Shown here: positions 55,366 to 60,331 of the stretch, one piece after another | How positions within the stretch are numbered: the first letter of the stretch is position 1 | Layout: every line of letters starts with the position of its first letter | DNA from: Alphaproteobacteria bacterium | Lineage (GTDB): Bacteria > Pseudomonadota > Alphaproteobacteria > Micropepsales > Micropepsaceae | Reading direction: 5' to 3' | DNA: 64,000 nt | NCBI GenBank assembly: GCA_017983635.1 | Contig: JAGOBA010000001.1 | Span: 186,001-250,000, forward strand | Program-made: the position numbers and the translations under genes | The notes under the pieces: model-generated | What the model saw: only the letters and a program-made list of their open reading frames with translations | Told to the model about the DNA's origin: nothing | The model's database searches: none

Positions 55366-55478
55366 GGTCTGCGTCCTGCGTGAGTCCGACAAATTGTCAG
55401 TGTAATGATAGCTGGCGCTTGGGTTGATTCAACACCTCTATCTTGTGGCCACCCCCACGGCGCGTTAACACCGGTGCG

Positions 55479-55697
55479 ATGTCAGCTGTCATCGAAAGCC
55501 CCTGCGTCAAGGTCTGCGCCATTGACGCTACGACAGGTTGGTGCCTGGGTTGTGGCCGCTCTATGCGGGAGATCGGCGCGTGGGGCTCGCTCTCGCCCGA
55601 AGCACGGCGGGCCGTGATGGCCGAGCTCGAGGGGCGCAAGGCGAAGATCCCTGACCGGGCGGCTCGCGCGGGGCAGTACCGGTTGCCGGGGTCATGA
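55479..55697 (+). CDS. DUF1289 family small protein
   Basis: A 72-residue protein with the DUF1289 pattern: SPCVKVCAIDATTGWCLGCG (four Cys, likely metal or Fe-S binding), then GWGSLSPEAR-like and a helical tail. Function of the family unknown. It overlaps the MOSC gene by ATGA. Confidence 0.88.
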   Translation: MSAVIESPCVKVCAIDATTGWCLGCGRSMREIGAWGSLSPEARRAVMAELEGRKAKIPDRAARAGQYRLPGS

Positions 55698-56236
55698 GCG
55701 GTCGCGTGATCGCTTTGGCCGTCAGCGGCACGCATACGACGTCGAAGCCACTGGTGGAGCGCGTCCGGTTCGTCGAGGGGCTTGGTGTCGAGGGTGACGC
55801 GCATGCGGGGGTGACGGTGAGGCACCGCTCGCGCGTCGCGATCGACCCCACTCAGCCGAACCTGCGGCAGGTACATTTGATTCACGGCGAGCTTATCGAC
55901 GATCTGCGCGCGAAGGGGTTCGCGGCTGCGCCGGGCGTGATGGGAGAGAACGTGACCACGCGGGGTGTCGACTTGTTGGCGCTGCCGCGCGGAACGCGAT
56001 TGCGGCTGGGTGCGAGCGCGGTCGTCGAGGTGACCGGGTTACGCAACCCTTGCACCCAGCTGGACGGGCTTCAGCCCGGACTGATGGAAGCCGTGCTGGT
56101 TCGCGATCCGGCGCGTGGCTTGATCCGTCTGGCCGGCGTGATGGGCGTGGTGATTGACAGCGGTGTAGTTGCCGTTGGCGATGCGATCGCGGTGGAGCTG
56201 CCTTCGGGCGCCCATGCGGCGTTGAGGCCGGTGTAG
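55694..56236 (+). CDS. MOSC-domain protein
   Basis: A 180-residue MOSC (molybdenum cofactor sulfurase C-terminal) domain. Visible are VEGLGVEGDAHAG, GVMGENVTTRGVDL with the G-E-N motif, and GLRNPCTQLDGLQPGL with the conserved Cys expected to carry sulfur. MOSC proteins serve in Moco-dependent transfers and detoxification. It is coupled to the DUF1289 gene. Confidence 0.92.
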   Translation: MSGRVIALAVSGTHTTSKPLVERVRFVEGLGVEGDAHAGVTVRHRSRVAIDPTQPNLRQVHLIHGELIDDLRAKGFAAAPGVMGENVTTRGVDLLALPRGTRLRLGASAVVEVTGLRNPCTQLDGLQPGLMEAVLVRDPARGLIRLAGVMGVVIDSGVVAVGDAIAVELPSGAHAALRPV

Positions 56237-56305
56237 TCTTTGGCCGCGGGCATCCCTGCTCGCCCTTGTGGCTTTGAAAATGAAAAGGCGCGGTTCCAGG
56301 AAGAT

Positions 56306-57034
56306 ATGATTACCATCCCCACTAACCCCGCCTATCATTTGCTCTTCGACGCTCTCGCGTGGGGGACGGGGATGGCGGTTGGGGTGGCGCTCTACCGGTG
56401 GCGGCTCAGGGAGGTGACGGCCCGGGTCGCGCGCGTGGCGGATGGCGGGTATTTCGCTTGTCTAGCGGTCGGGGCGATCGTGGGCGCGTATCTCACAGGG
56501 TCGCTTACGTTTTGGGGACAGGGTGTTTTTGCGCTCGCGCATTCGGTGGCGGGCGCGTTGGTCGGCGCGATCGTCGGCGTTGAAGTCTACAAGGCCACGC
56601 GTGGTATTCGCATGTCGACGGGGATCGTGTTCGCCGGGCCGTTTGCGGCGGGTGTTGCGGTTGGGCGGTGGGGTTGTCTGTTCGCGGGGATTCCCGATCA
56701 GACATTTGGAATTGCGACTTTCCTGCCCTGGGCCGTCGATCTAGGCGACGGGATCGGACGGCATCCGGTGCAGGTCTACGAGTCGTTCTCGATGGCGCTG
56801 TTCACGCTTGTGTTTGCGCTGGGCTTGCGGGGGCGAGCGGAATGGGCGATGCGGCATGGGTTCTATTGGCTGGCGATCGTGTATGGAGCGCAGCGCTTTG
56901 CGTGGGAGTTCTTGAAGCCCTACCCCACGCTTGTTGGACCGCTGAATCATTTCCATCTAATGTGCGCGGGATTGGTCGCGTACGGGGCGATCATGATTGA
57001 TAGAGAGAGGCGTTCGCAGCGTGAGATTGTTTAG
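56306..57034 (+). CDS. Divergent prolipoprotein diacylglyceryl transferase (Lgt)-like membrane protein
   Basis: A 242-residue inner-membrane protein with about six or seven helices. Lgt-like marks are FALAHSVAGALVGAIVG (conserved His region), GRWGCLFAGIPDQTFG (in place of GRxGNFxNGE) and GIGRHPVQVYESF (compare RHPSQLYE). A C-terminal R-F-x-W-E-F-L-K-P pattern follows. The replacement of the usual Asn-Phe suggests a substrate different from prolipoproteins. The ATG at 56306 has AGGA upstream. It precedes the Tes-like radical SAM gene by 28 bases and is probably co-transcribed. Confidence 0.8.
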   Translation: MITIPTNPAYHLLFDALAWGTGMAVGVALYRWRLREVTARVARVADGGYFACLAVGAIVGAYLTGSLTFWGQGVFALAHSVAGALVGAIVGVEVYKATRGIRMSTGIVFAGPFAAGVAVGRWGCLFAGIPDQTFGIATFLPWAVDLGDGIGRHPVQVYESFSMALFTLVFALGLRGRAEWAMRHGFYWLAIVYGAQRFAWEFLKPYPTLVGPLNHFHLMCAGLVAYGAIMIDRERRSQREIV

Positions 57035-57062
57035 TTTGCTGATTCTCAAGTAAGGAACGCCC

Positions 57063-58493
57063 ATGAACCGGCAGGTCGACCTCAAGAGCACCTCCGTGTT
57101 GCCGGTTCGCAAGTCGGCGCCGTATCTGTTTCATGCACAGACGACGAGTCTGTGCGAGGTGTGCCTCAAACTCGTGCCGGCGAAGATTCTGATCGAGGGC
57201 GATGATGTCTTCTATCAGAAACGCTGCGCTGAACATGGTGTGCAGAAGACGCTCATTTCGAGCGACGCGACGTACTGGAAGAGTTGCAAGGACTATTTGA
57301 AGCCGGGCGACCGGCCGCTGGCGCCGCAGACGCATACGGAGCGCGGGTGTCCTTATGATTGCGGGTTGTGTCCGGATCATGAGCAGCACTCCTGTCTCGC
57401 GATCATCGAGATCAATGAGGCGTGCAATCTGTCGTGTCCGGTGTGTTTCGCGGATTCTTCGGTGAAGCGGACGGGGCATCGCGACCTGGCGACGATCGAG
57501 CGGATGATGGATACGCTGGTCGAGAGCGAGGGCGAGCCGGACCTGCTGCAGATTTCCGGTGGCGAGCCCACCATTCACCCACAGTTCTTCGAAATTCTCG
57601 ACGCGGCAAAGCGGCGGCCGATCCGGCATTTGATGATCAACACGAACGGTGTGCGGATCGCGCGCGAGCCTGAATTCGCGGCGCGGCTTGCCACCTATAT
57701 GCCGCGCTTTGAGGTTTATCTTCAGTTCGACTCGTTGAAGCGCGAGGCGTTGATGAATTTGCGCGGTGCAGACTTGCGCGCCGTTCGGCAACAGGCGCTG
57801 GAGGCACTGGAGAAGCACAACATCTCGACCACGTTGGTCGTGACGCTGAAGAAGGGCGTGAACGACGGCGAGGTCGCCGACATTGTGCGCCATGCGCTGG
57901 AGTGGAAATGCGTGCGCGGCGTCACGTTGCAGCCGATCCAGGACGCCGGGCGCAATGATGGGTTCGATCCGAAGGCGCACCGGGTGTTGCTCAGCGATGT
58001 GCGGCGCGAGGTGGCAAAGGCTGGCGTGTTTGCGCTCGAAGACATGATCCCCCTGCCCTGCAATCCGGACGCGATTTCGATCGGCTATGGCTTGCGCAAC
58101 GGTAAGACCGTGGCGCCGATCACGTCGATGATCCCACGCGAAGTGCTGGTGGAGGCCGCGCCGAACACGGTGACGTTCGAGGCGTTTCCAGAATTGCGCC
58201 GGCGGATGTTCGACCTGCTGTCGCTCTCGACCGCGGCGGCGGACACGTCGGACAAGCTTGCCGCCTTGCTGTGTTGCCTACCGGAGGCCGCGGTGCCGCA
58301 GGAGATCGGCTACGAGCACACGTTCCGCGTCGTGATCGTCCAGTTCATGGACCGTTTCAACTTCGACTTGGGCGGCGTGAAGCGCAGCTGCGTCCACTTC
58401 GTCGAGCCGGACGGGAAGATCTACCCGTTCGATACGTTCAACACGTTCTACCGGGAGGGCGCGGCGGGACAAGCGGCGGCTCAGCGTGGGTAA
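57063..58493 (+). CDS. Radical SAM protein of the MJ0619/Tes (tetraether lipid synthase)-like family
   Basis: A 476-residue protein. Cysteines are laid out as a rubredoxin-like set (C31, C34, C55, C75), a first CX3CX2C (C96, C100, C103, in GCPYDCGLCPDH), and the radical SAM CX3CX2C (C121, C125, C128, in CNLSCPVCFA). ISGGEPTIHP is the SAM-binding GGE motif. This order matches MJ0619-type proteins. The archaeal member is a tetraether lipid synthase joining lipid tails by C-C bonds, with a rubredoxin-like iron and several Fe-S clusters. Others of the family act as radical methylases. Function here is inferred: a lipid-tail C-C coupling or methylation. It sits after the Lgt-like gene and before small membrane proteins. 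Confidence 0.85.
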   Translation: MNRQVDLKSTSVLPVRKSAPYLFHAQTTSLCEVCLKLVPAKILIEGDDVFYQKRCAEHGVQKTLISSDATYWKSCKDYLKPGDRPLAPQTHTERGCPYDCGLCPDHEQHSCLAIIEINEACNLSCPVCFADSSVKRTGHRDLATIERMMDTLVESEGEPDLLQISGGEPTIHPQFFEILDAAKRRPIRHLMINTNGVRIAREPEFAARLATYMPRFEVYLQFDSLKREALMNLRGADLRAVRQQALEALEKHNISTTLVVTLKKGVNDGEVADIVRHALEWKCVRGVTLQPIQDAGRNDGFDPKAHRVLLSDVRREVAKAGVFALEDMIPLPCNPDAISIGYGLRNGKTVAPITSMIPREVLVEAAPNTVTFEAFPELRRRMFDLLSLSTAAADTSDKLAALLCCLPEAAVPQEIGYEHTFRVVIVQFMDRFNFDLGGVKRSCVHFVEPDGKIYPFDTFNTFYREGAAGQAAAQRG

Positions 58494-58965
58494 CGGCCGT
58501 CCCAATACGCGCGTCGGCTTCGAGCATAACGCACTCACCATCGGTGGACTGGCTTGGCTTTCACTCGTCGCGACGTGGTGCGCCTGGGTCGTTATTCGAT
58601 ACCTTCTGTCTGACAGCACAACAGCCGCCGCGTGGGCTCTGCCCTCGGCAATGGCGCTGGGGGTTGGGCCCTATGCACTCATCCCAGGGTATGCGGCGTG
58701 GTGGTTTGGGAAGCGGCAGGCGGGGTATGAGGCCGGGCGGCATCTTCGCGATTGGTGGTGGCGGGTGCCGCAGGCGCTTGGGGTTGCTTGCGCTGCTGGG
58801 TATTGGGTTCTGGGCGCGCTTCCGATTGTCGATCTGTTGAAGGGATTTGGCAGTTGCGGCACGGAAGCGGTGCCGTGTGGCGGATTGGCGATCGCCTATT
58901 TGTCGTCAGCGCTGTTGTTCTGGATTCCTGGTTGGTTGTTCTATTGGATGTCGACACGGCCTTAG
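58486..58965 (+). CDS. Small integral membrane protein downstream of the Tes-like gene
   Basis: A 159-residue protein with four predicted helices (about 19-40, 48-70, 95-113, 132-155) and Cys in a loop (GSCGTEAVPCG). The GTG at 58486 overlaps the end of the radical SAM gene by eight bases, implying coupled translation. No family recognised. Confidence 0.65.
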   Translation: MGNGRPNTRVGFEHNALTIGGLAWLSLVATWCAWVVIRYLLSDSTTAAAWALPSAMALGVGPYALIPGYAAWWFGKRQAGYEAGRHLRDWWWRVPQALGVACAAGYWVLGALPIVDLLKGFGSCGTEAVPCGGLAIAYLSSALLFWIPGWLFYWMSTRP

Positions 58966-58978
58966 CGAGGGTTCTTCG

Positions 58979-59200
58979 ATGAGCAACGACATGCGGAGGC
59001 TGATCGGGCTGATCTTGATCGTCATCGGTGCACTGTGGCTCGTGTTTACGGGGCTCTGTACGGTGTCGGTCGCTTTGTTCATCTTCCAGTCGTATGGCCC
59101 GACGATGAACGACTTCGTCACGATCGTTGCCGTCGCCGGCGGGTCGACGCTGCTCGGTTGGGCGGTCTATGCCATGGGCAAGCGATTGAGGAGGTCATAG
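58979..59200 (+). CDS. Two-helix membrane protein, tandem paralog 1
   Basis: A 73-residue protein with two membrane helices and a basic C-terminus. RRLIGLILIVIGALWLVFTG, then LC, matches the next two genes. No known family. Confidence 0.6.
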   Translation: MSNDMRRLIGLILIVIGALWLVFTGLCTVSVALFIFQSYGPTMNDFVTIVAVAGGSTLLGWAVYAMGKRLRRS

Positions 59201-59203
59201 CCT

Positions 59204-59455
59204 GTGAGCGAGTCCATGCCTGAGCCAGGCCCGGTTCGCCGCTTGATTGGTCTTGTCCTGATCGCGATTGGGGCGCTTTGGATGGCTGGCGCTGGGTTGT
59301 GCAGCGCGGCGTTCGTGGTCACGCTGTTCACCGAGGGCGGTGACTTTCGCGAAGCGTTGAGTATCGTGCCGATGATCGTCTTGGTCGGCGGATTTTCGAT
59401 CGGGATGGGGTTTGTATTCTATGTGGTGGGGCGCGCTTTGAGGCCGAAAGCATGA
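59204..59455 (+). CDS. Two-helix membrane protein, tandem paralog 2
   Basis: An 83-residue protein, GTG start, three bases after paralog 1. It shares RRLIGLVLIAIGALWMAGAG, then LC, and a C-terminal GRALR motif. It overlaps the next gene by ATGA. Confidence 0.6.
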   Translation: MSESMPEPGPVRRLIGLVLIAIGALWMAGAGLCSAAFVVTLFTEGGDFREALSIVPMIVLVGGFSIGMGFVFYVVGRALRPKA

Positions 59456-59697
59456 CGGACCAGGGACCTGGAGCGACGCAGCGGTTCATCGGGTTGGCGC
59501 TGATGGTGGTCGCGGGGCTTTGGATGGCATTCAGCGGACTTTGTGCGGTTGGGGTGCTCACGACTGTCGTTTCGGAGAGCGCCGCTACGAGCGACATGCT
59601 CGGTTTGGGACTTGCGGTGCTCTTTATCAGTGGTCTTTCGGCGGCGGGGGGCTATGCGATCTTCGTCACCGGACGCAGCCTGATGGGCGGAAAGTAA
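59452..59697 (+). CDS. Two-helix membrane protein, tandem paralog 3
   Basis: An 81-residue protein, ATG start overlapping paralog 2. It shares R-F-I-G-L, G-L-W-M, G-L-C and the C-terminal GRSL. No known family; the triplet arises from tandem duplication. Confidence 0.6.
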   Translation: MTDQGPGATQRFIGLALMVVAGLWMAFSGLCAVGVLTTVVSESAATSDMLGLGLAVLFISGLSAAGGYAIFVTGRSLMGGK

Positions 59698-59824
59698 GTA
59701 ACGGTCTGCGTTACGGCGGCGTTATGTTGTGACGGACGCACGCGGTCACGATGCGGTCACATTGCGGGCCAATCGTCACCGTTTTTCGGGTGCTTCCTGG
59801 GTCGTGGGGACATGGAGAGACCCG

Positions 59825-60331
59825 ATGACCACGCTCACCCGCCCGCTCGGCTATATCGCCCTTCTCTATTGGTTCGTGTTTTGGCTGCTCAACGGCATGG
59901 ACAAGTTCATGCATGGCGCGACCGTCGCCGCGGGCGGCACGCCCCTCTTCGTGTGGTTCGGCAAGGACCGGGGGGAGCAATTCGGAAAGTACTTCGAACG
60001 TCTCGACCTGCCGACGGAGGGTATTGCGCCGCTGCTCGCCACCTGCGGGGTGCTGGAACTGGGGGTGGCAGTTCTTTTCGGGATGGCTTTGTTGGGCACG
60101 CGAATGTTCGAAGTTTGGCTGGGTGCCGCCTTTGCCGCCTGCGCGCTGATGTTTGTCGGGTTCAGCGCTTGGGACGTGGTCGCGGGCGATCGGGCGGAGC
60201 TGCTGGAGCACGGGACCTATCTGGGCGTCGTCTTCATTACAGCGGCGTTCCTAACAGTGACGCAGTTTCAGCCAGTGGTATGGCGCGCGCCGCGCACTCA
60301 ACCGCGCGGCGGCCTCGCGGTAACATCGTAA
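59825..60331 (+). CDS. Four-helix membrane protein (DoxX-like architecture)
   Basis: A 168-residue inner-membrane protein with four predicted helices (about 8-25, 68-90, 95-118, 130-152). An N-terminal NGMDKFMHGATVAAGGTPLF and the loop following it recall DoxX-like proteins. Assignment to a family is tentative. It is separated from the trio by 127 bases and may have its own promoter. Confidence 0.6.
   Translation: MTTLTRPLGYIALLYWFVFWLLNGMDKFMHGATVAAGGTPLFVWFGKDRGEQFGKYFERLDLPTEGIAPLLATCGVLELGVAVLFGMALLGTRMFEVWLGAAFAACALMFVGFSAWDVVAGDRAELLEHGTYLGVVFITAAFLTVTQFQPVVWRAPRTQPRGGLAVTS

Follow-up and report, generated by a model that had tools for sequence, protein, structure and literature searches.

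Between positions 56306 and 59697, the window, a stretch of 64,000 nucleotides from an alphaproteobacterial contig, encodes in this order a membrane protein of the Lgt family, a radical SAM protein sharing the fold of Tes/MJ0619, and three small membrane proteins in tandem (Table 1). Across many phyla the first two genes occur as an obligate pair, and the small proteins carry an invariant cysteine that, by analogy with lipoproteins, makes them candidate lipid acceptors. Both folds, Lgt and Tes, handle lipids. We tentatively favor, at somewhat less than even confidence, a dedicated system in which the Lgt-like enzyme would lipidate the small-protein cysteine and the radical enzyme would modify alkyl chains. 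The gene set is bacterial, conserved and apparently undescribed. A search of the open-access literature, to which most subscription journals do not belong, found no relevant paper in which a diacylglyceryl transferase is combined with tetraethers or a radical SAM enzyme.

Table 1 Genes of the locus, in positions of the window.
Feature	Length	Position	Strand	Basis or remark
Lgt-like membrane enzyme	242 aa	56306..57034	+	Pfam LGT, residue comparison, AF2 model, 5azb
Tes/TrsS-superfamily radical SAM protein	476 aa	57063..58493	+	profiles, motifs, structure match
Multi-TM orphan ORF, GTG start	159 aa	58486..58965	+	doubtful part, unconserved
Small 2-TM protein s1	73 aa	58979..59200	+	candidate lipid acceptor
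Small 2-TM protein s2	83 aa	59204..59455	+	candidate lipid acceptor
Small 2-TM protein s3	81 aa	59452..59697	+	candidate lipid acceptor

The radical SAM gene starts 28 bases after the Lgt-like gene, and the 159-aa membrane ORF overlaps its end by 8 bases. These positions, together with the three tandem small ORFs, agree with a preliminary description of the locus made from the sequence. The overlapping ORF had been listed there as a coupled membrane protein; the overlap stands, but the ORF does not belong to the conserved part. It has no Pfam or NCBIfam match above cut-off, and it is not a conserved component because tblastn finds copies solely in the window's own genome. A further membrane ORF (168/200 aa, 59825-60331) is common to the window and one relative only. 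Apart from the radical SAM protein, the operon encodes membrane proteins throughout.

The Lgt-like gene adjoins the radical SAM gene in every one of the 85 distinct loci having sequence at that place (85/85), which come from Alpha-, Beta- and Gammaproteobacteria, Bacilli and Cyanobacteria. Among 299 Pseudomonadota genomes, the same nine carry both genes and none carries one alone; the Lgt-like subfamily scores at least 259 bits in these nine, and the next score is 106 bits. The co-occurrence for which the preliminary description had proposed a neighborhood survey is essentially complete. Neighbor clustering of the Lgt-paired loci revealed no recurrent third enzyme gene and no other lipid-biosynthesis gene recurring beside the pair. 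The remaining clusters that recurred consisted of shadow ORFs or seemed to reflect synteny within particular orders.

The identity of the first gene as a divergent Lgt-like protein is confirmed by both domain and fold. It passes Pfam LGT (PF01790) with 55.1 bits against a gathering threshold of 24.9, but does not reach the equivalog cut-off for orthodox Lgt (TIGR00544, 20.1 versus 118.9 bits). Its AF2 model (pLDDT 93.9) matches 5azb in Foldseek with an E-value of 6e-5 and a probability of 1.00, the only match under 0.001, and aligns to this structure with a Z-score of 13.1, the next structure reaching 5.5. The host genome carries a separate canonical Lgt, and residues were compared with this protein and with E. 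coli Lgt. The equivalents of R143 and R239, which are R121 and R197 in the window protein, are invariant in all 23 Lgt-like rows, and those of G154, H196, Y235 and E243 (as E/D) are also kept. In contrast, Y26 is replaced by D/E, H103 mostly by hydrophobic residues and N146 by an invariant cysteine, with none of the 23 rows keeping the originals; the window protein has D, A and C at these positions. Furthermore, E151 is lost, R246 is changed to K, and the head domain is about half as long as in E. coli Lgt. Y26, H103 and N146 are essential in the E. coli enzyme (PMC13251419). Some other Lgt proteins carry different residues at H103 and N146.

Alignment of the radical SAM protein recovered the three motifs in the MJ0619/Tes order that had been read from the sequence beforehand, using Tes motifs from the literature for comparison (PMC9433317). 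More specifically, the rubredoxin-like site C31-X2-C34-X20-C55-X2-H58 has a spacing identical to C9X2C12X20C33X2H36 of MJ0619, and its four residues are invariant in all aligned rows. The N-terminal auxiliary [4Fe-4S] site (C96-X3-C100-X2-C103 with H106) and the SAM cluster (C121-X3-C125-X2-C128; Pfam Radical_SAM, 77.5 bits) are likewise present. The Tes-type fold is equally clear: the single sequence matches GDGT-MAS in the PDB with an E-value of 9e-64, and the predicted model aligns to 7tom (GDGT-MAS) with a Z-score of 46.4 and an rmsd of 2.4 over 397 residues spanning 20-466, while the next structure has a Z-score of 19.8. The RiPP maturases SuiB and SkfB belong to the second tier of matches, with Z-scores near 19.

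The profile search and tree proposed for this protein do not support membership in Tes. The Tes model NF045702 gives 266 bits, short of its equivalog cut-off of 450, and MJ0619 itself scores 733. The best-scoring NCBIfam model is TrsS (NF045646), matched at full length with 304 bits, again below the equivalog cut-off of 490. In the tree, the Lgt-paired radical SAM proteins form their own clade, standing together when some long branches are omitted (SH-aLRT 95-98); archaeal Tes proper is represented here solely by MJ0619, and long branches leave the exact place of MJ0619, L040, L145 and L146 unsure. The ligands of the Tes C-terminal cluster, which the preliminary description did not consider, are not conserved. 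The positions of C438/C455/C456/C470 in MJ0619 are occupied by I/S/C/D in the window protein, so that one of the four cysteines is kept, and the position of Met439 is Val; throughout the Lgt-paired clade, positions 455 and 470 are S and D/E. In Tes, this cluster bears a substrate-bound intermediate (PMC9433317). Invariant cysteines of the window protein include C111 and, in its C-terminal part, C333, C404, C405 and C443.

A defense role was considered and rejected, as the PADLOC viperin match is weak (51 bits, radical SAM core only) and the TrsS/Tes scores are five to six times higher. Neither MJ0619 nor the radical SAM family had a relative on viral contigs, so nothing points to a gene set of viral origin, and PHROGs returned generic radical SAM only.

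The small ORFs do encode membrane proteins, as previously described, but the description missed their invariant cysteine, which adds a third component to the locus. The first TM helix ends in ...VFTGLC27T in s1 (Cys codon 59057-59059), ...AGAGLC33S in s2 (59300-59302) and ...AFSGLC31A in s3 (59542-59544). Small membrane proteins with this motif occur within 1.5 kb of the pair at 79 of 94 loci. The vicinity of the pair, 260 kb in all, contains 112 small two-TM ORFs with [GA]-x-C at a hydrophobic exit, versus 6 in 738 kb of distant flank. Like the gene pair, these cysteine proteins recur in more than one phylum, which speaks against a chance arrangement. Where a pair has no downstream small protein, one is often found upstream or between the two genes; at some loci (e.g., L080, L106, L113, L119, L120) the stretch read contains none. 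The cysteine and the glycine at -2 are each present in 81 of 87 aligned rows, above every other column. Of 105 sites, 84 have G at -2 and the other 21 have A, and L is the commonest residue at -1. The proteins match no Pfam family above cut-off, and TGLC, AGLC and SGLC in s1-s3 do not satisfy the lipobox [LVI][ASTVI][GAS]C. Because the net charge is +1.3 before and -0.6 after the cysteine, which lies a median of 21 residues past the last K/R (quartiles 19.5-21), the cysteine is predicted to face the outer side, where Lgt works.

These features suggest how a lipid-anchoring system could operate. In a first step, the Lgt-like enzyme would move a (diacyl)glyceryl lipid onto the cysteine of the adjacently encoded small proteins, where their signal-anchor-like helix reaches the outer side; R143 and R239, which the enzyme keeps, are the arginines by which the phospholipid's diacylglyceryl moiety is held and activated. 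Since the lost residues set the enzyme apart from canonical Lgt, and the G-x-C context sets the cysteine apart from a lipobox, the small proteins would serve as private acceptors that stay uncleaved in the membrane as lipid-bearing proteins. In a second step, the radical SAM protein, which combines a lipid-binding architecture of the Tes type with a C-terminal cluster of different ligation, would act from the cytoplasmic side on alkyl chains, either those of the phospholipid donor or those of the lipid already attached, through coupling, methylation, thiolation or desaturation, which are indistinguishable here. It is possible, though on the unlikely side, that this is a new lipid-anchoring route in which the Lgt-like enzyme loads a diacylglyceryl group onto the membrane-embedded cysteine and the radical enzyme, its cluster rewired, modifies or cross-links the bound tails into membrane-spanning or otherwise unusual protein-bound lipids; hosts in which such lipids would occur include Bradyrhizobium, Paenibacillus, Caulobacter and cyanobacteria.

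Several points weigh against lipid anchoring. As G-[LGA]-C does not conform to the lipobox, the acceptor role is drawn by analogy, and the cysteine could serve otherwise, in a disulfide, metal binding or subunit contact. E. coli Lgt cannot do without Y26 and N146 (PMC13251419), so it may be that thiols are not acceptors of diacylglycerol from the Lgt-like protein in the first place. Furthermore, with the cysteine on the outer side and a radical SAM domain that is presumably cytosolic, what the two enzymes have in common must be a lipid rather than a site. The loci at which the stretch read contains no such small protein also count against this reading.

Were the radical SAM enzyme to couple or modify phospholipid tails as Tes does, the Lgt-like protein would remodel the head group or glycerol of that lipid, with no protein as acceptor, and the small proteins would be scaffold or lipid-delivery subunits. 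Such free-lipid synthesis is rather unlikely, even with a strong GDGT-MAS match over all domains, a Tes crystal that bound E. coli ester phospholipids (PMC9433317), bacterial Tes homologs proposed for brGDGT synthesis (PMC8941075), and the invariant C333, C404, C405 and C443, which could still bind a cluster. It is at odds with the single conserved Tes C-terminal cysteine, the absent Met439 and the lack of other recurrent lipid-biosynthesis neighbors, and it leaves the invariant cysteine of the small proteins without explanation. That cysteine instead shifts the likeliest product from a free membrane-spanning lipid toward a lipid-anchored protein. The preliminary proposal of a lipid-related locus holds for the Lgt family, the Tes fold and the obligate pairing, but Tes-type activity, tail-to-tail C-C coupling giving tetraether or diabolic-type lipids, is not supported, given the profile score, the separate clade and the C-terminal residues.

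A lipid-unrelated role within the TrsS redox/selenium-linked radical SAM group, with the Lgt-like gene co-opted as a small-molecule membrane transferase, is improbable. TrsS is the top NCBIfam model, and other TrsS-like relatives sit with methyltransferase and thioredoxin/CcdA-type genes; yet the score is below the cut-off, no methyltransferase recurs beside genes of the Lgt-paired clade, the clade is separate in the tree, and the rest of the operon consists of membrane proteins. Peptide chemistry appears quite improbable as well. Small linked, often tandem peptides beside a radical SAM enzyme are reminiscent of RiPP gene sets, SuiB and SkfB are among the second-tier structures, and an Lgt-like protein devoid of Y26, H103 and N146 could be a former transferase that now acts as a membrane partner, leaving the radical SAM enzyme to modify the small protein, for example by a thioether at the cysteine or by methylation. 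However, the cysteine lies at the outer helix end, far from a cytosolic enzyme, domain searches (Pfam, NCBIfam) show no RiPP recognition domain, and a dead transferase would not need invariant R143/R239.

If the lipid-anchoring reading is true, bacteria of several phyla share an unrecognized system that unites protein lipidation with radical lipid-tail chemistry, two lipid chemistries not known to meet, and one cysteine in small co-encoded proteins offers a concrete candidate substrate. The findings also have a geochemical side. Counts of possible branched tetraether producers have included bacterial 'Tes homologs' (PMC8941075, PMC11868695); as at least the large Lgt-paired clade lacks most Tes C-terminal ligands and travels with an Lgt-like gene, such counts may be inflated.

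Among known systems, Tes/GDGT-MAS (MJ0619; 7TOL/7TOM; NF045702) shares with the window protein the whole-chain fold, the rubredoxin site, the N-terminal C-X3-C-X2-C with His, the SAM CX3CX2C and the SAM-contact Arg/Gln residues. Unlike Tes, the window protein reaches about a third of the MJ0619 score on the Tes model, its clade has the extra invariant C111, C333, C404 and C405, and its family is always beside an Lgt-like gene. TrsS (NF045646) differs in that the window gene has no in-frame TGA. TrsS-like genes at L142-L144, L147 and L148 adjoin a methyltransferase gene, an arrangement seen in M. vanbaalenii and on haloarchaeal plasmids; no such gene lies next to the window gene. Downstream of the radical SAM gene in the five methyltransferase-linked relatives, an Lgt-like gene and a matching small protein are both absent. 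Mss, elb and Ger, considered here from the literature alone, are comparable as bacterial enzymes for which the coupling or etherification of lipid tails has been proposed or demonstrated (PMC11868695, PMC13274423). E. coli Lgt (5AZB) shares Pfam LGT, the helical-bundle fold and the R143/G154/H196/Y235/R239/E243 equivalents, and differs at Y26, H103, N146, E151 and R246 and in its longer head domain. Finally, s1-s3 resemble lipobox lipoproteins in their basic n-region, hydrophobic helix and cysteine at the outer membrane interface, but the small proteins have Gly at -2, often Leu at -1, a hydrophobic stretch of about 20 residues and usually a second TM helix after the cysteine.

The alphaproteobacterial assembly measures 4.6 Mb, and the locus is on its contig 10. 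Its reading frames agree in coordinates with the preliminary description, which had placed a radical SAM gene 28 bases past an Lgt-like gene, followed by a membrane ORF and three small membrane proteins. An alternative TTG start of the Lgt-like frame is possible at 56240; the ATG at 56306 agrees with the family alignment. No strong promoter or terminator rose above the shuffled-sequence background at the locus.

Reading frames of the locus and its flanks
Feature	Position	Strand	Remark
DUF1289 protein and MOSC-domain protein	55443-56236		directly upstream
Lgt-family protein	56306-57034	+	ORF
Radical SAM protein	57063-58493	+	ORF, 28 bases past the Lgt-like end
Membrane ORF, 159 aa	58486-58965	+	ORF
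Three small membrane proteins	58979-59697	+	ORFs
Multi-helix membrane protein	59825-60331		128 bases past the last small gene
Repetitive ORF, 757 aa	60537-62810		directly past the locus; resembles autotransporter/outer-membrane barrel protein

The 159-aa ORF had a homolog in none of the relatives fetched and is therefore not counted as a firm part of the set. The multi-helix protein matched no Pfam family and is common to only one of these relatives; in one same-genus genome (L041), a copy with 75% identity follows the small genes. Conservation of the DUF1289 and MOSC genes beside the Lgt-like gene stops at three close relatives: L031, L032 and L033/L042.

The pairing of the Lgt-like and radical SAM genes, for which the preliminary description had proposed a survey, holds throughout. 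A genome scan returned at least 578 confirmed relatives, the best 80 of which were read. In the loci read, the Lgt-like gene adjoins the radical SAM gene at all 85 distinct loci with sequence there, lying about 2 kb away at L118 and downstream at L040; at the four loci without such a neighbor, the contig starts or stops at the radical SAM gene. Among 299 evenly drawn Pseudomonadota genomes, the radical SAM clade occurs in nine, and the Lgt-like subfamily in the same nine and no others (259-309 bits), the next match being in the canonical Lgt range at 106 bits. The pair is thus obligate.

Invariant-cysteine small proteins form a third component of the set, beyond the preliminary account. Almost all loci encode small proteins, between one and four apiece, of about 60-150 aa with two to three helices. 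Their genes usually overlap the radical SAM gene end by 4 bases; sometimes they precede the Lgt-like gene or separate it from the radical SAM gene. In an alignment of 87 small proteins (covering loci other than L094-L121, which are mostly from Bacilli), the Cys and the Gly at -2 are each present in 81, with only one other Gly comparable (80). The Cys pattern was observed in 75 of 79 loci, versus 30 of 79 when the Cys was placed randomly within each protein. Up to 1.5 kb from the pair (260 kb in all, 79 of 94 loci), 112 small ORFs combine two helices with a [GA]-x-C behind a hydrophobic stretch, compared with 6 in 738 kb of flank lying beyond 4 kb. The Cys follows the last basic residue by a median of 21 residues (quartiles 19.5 and 21), and it lies at the outer face according to the distribution of charges. 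In Bacilli (LNAACFG), Mycobacterium (GGLCTG, GVCTG) and one cyanobacterium (LNGTCS), it is instead the last helix that ends in this Cys. The close relative L031 carries a tandem row of four such genes; the product of the last has lost the Cys.

The model of the Lgt-like protein (pLDDT 93.9) has E. coli Lgt (5azb) as its sole significant structural match (Z 13.1 versus 5.5 for the next), and a canonical Lgt is also present in the genome (236 bits). Six residues are essential to E. coli Lgt (Y26, H103, R143, N146, G154, R239; PMC13251419, PMC4728403); of these, R143, G154 and R239 are invariant in the Lgt-like rows. In contrast, Y26 is D/E in nearly all, H103 is a non-His, mostly hydrophobic residue, and N146 is an invariant Cys; GRxGCxxxGxxDxTxG...GDGxxRHP replaces the Lgt signature motif. 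H103 and N146 also differ in some Lgt proteins outside this subfamily (PMC13251419), so these losses suggest, without proving, that the acceptor or the mechanism has changed.

The donor-side arginines are kept, other essential residues are lost, and the small proteins that are always co-encoded are most strongly conserved at a Cys placed at a helix end; the simplest reading is that the paralog would use this Cys. E. coli Lgt transfers diacylglycerol from phosphatidylglycerol, at the outer face, to a Cys at a helix end. Read from the anatomy of the locus, the Lgt-like paralog would lipidate the putative acceptor Cys of the small proteins, and the Tes-like enzyme would alter that lipid, either ahead of the transfer or following it.

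The radical SAM protein was compared with the archaeal tetraether synthase Tes (MJ0619, GDGT-MAS). TrsS (304 bits) and Tes (266 bits) score far above all other NCBIfam models, but both cut-offs (490 and 450 bits) are missed. GDGT-MAS is the closest solved structure by sequence, and the AlphaFold2 model (pLDDT 81.6; residues 366-413 poor) matches it with Z 46.4 over 397 residues, the second-best structure reaching Z 19.8. In a maximum-likelihood tree, the protein falls in a 41-row clade of Lgt-paired proteins (SH-aLRT 98; 95-97 with some long branches omitted) spanning Proteobacteria, Bacilli, Cyanobacteria, Melainabacteria and Bacteroidota. MJ0619 and the plasmid homologs of haloarchaea and M. 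vanbaalenii fall elsewhere.

Five such plasmid relatives (L142, L143, L144, L147, L148) show no Lgt-like gene and represent a different, methyltransferase-linked system, with a methyltransferase gene after the radical SAM relative and various thioredoxin/redoxin, CcdA, DUF547 and DUF3179 genes nearby; the L148 radical SAM gene is apparently split into two frames. LGT-family neighbors also occur at the actinobacterial loci L145 (Mycobacterium branderi) and L146 (Nonomuraea) and at L040. L145 (4241-7434, plasmid-borne) encodes, in this order, an Lgt-like protein, two tandem small membrane proteins (GGLCTG/GVCTG) and the radical SAM protein, and an M. avium plasmid matches over a span equal to L145's (the matched stretch alone). 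At L040 (6731-9056), in a same-family genome, the radical SAM paralog is strongly diverged (32% identity) and is accompanied by an LGT-family neighbor of its own and by a small protein of four helices containing one Cys.

Compared with the Tes ligand positions (PMC9433317), the radical SAM protein retains the rubredoxin, N-terminal cluster and SAM-cluster ligands. At the C-terminal cluster, however, C438, C455, C456 and C470 become I, S, C and D, and Met439 becomes V; S at 455 and D/E at 470 are clade-wide. Since L145, L146 and L040, long branches of unsure placement, are paired yet retain Cys at 455, 456 and 470, the pairing may predate the ligand loss. C333, C404, C405 and C443 (the C456 equivalent) stay invariant throughout the diverse rows aligned (22 and 29) and could hold a cluster with other ligands, a suggestion tempered by the position of C404 and C405 in the poorly modeled region. 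One sulfur of the Tes C-terminal cluster bonds the substrate between two hydrogen abstractions (PMC9433317), and with these ligands changed the Tes reaction should not be assumed.

Our search of the open literature turned up no account of the Lgt-like/radical SAM pair, of its triad with the small proteins, or of those proteins. Earlier work recognizes a group of bacterial Tes homologs, which it suspects of brGDGT synthesis (PMC8941075, PMC11868695), and the Lgt-paired clade is probably among those counted in these surveys. The parts belong to known superfamilies, while their combination seems new, and the gene set may constitute a categorically new system.
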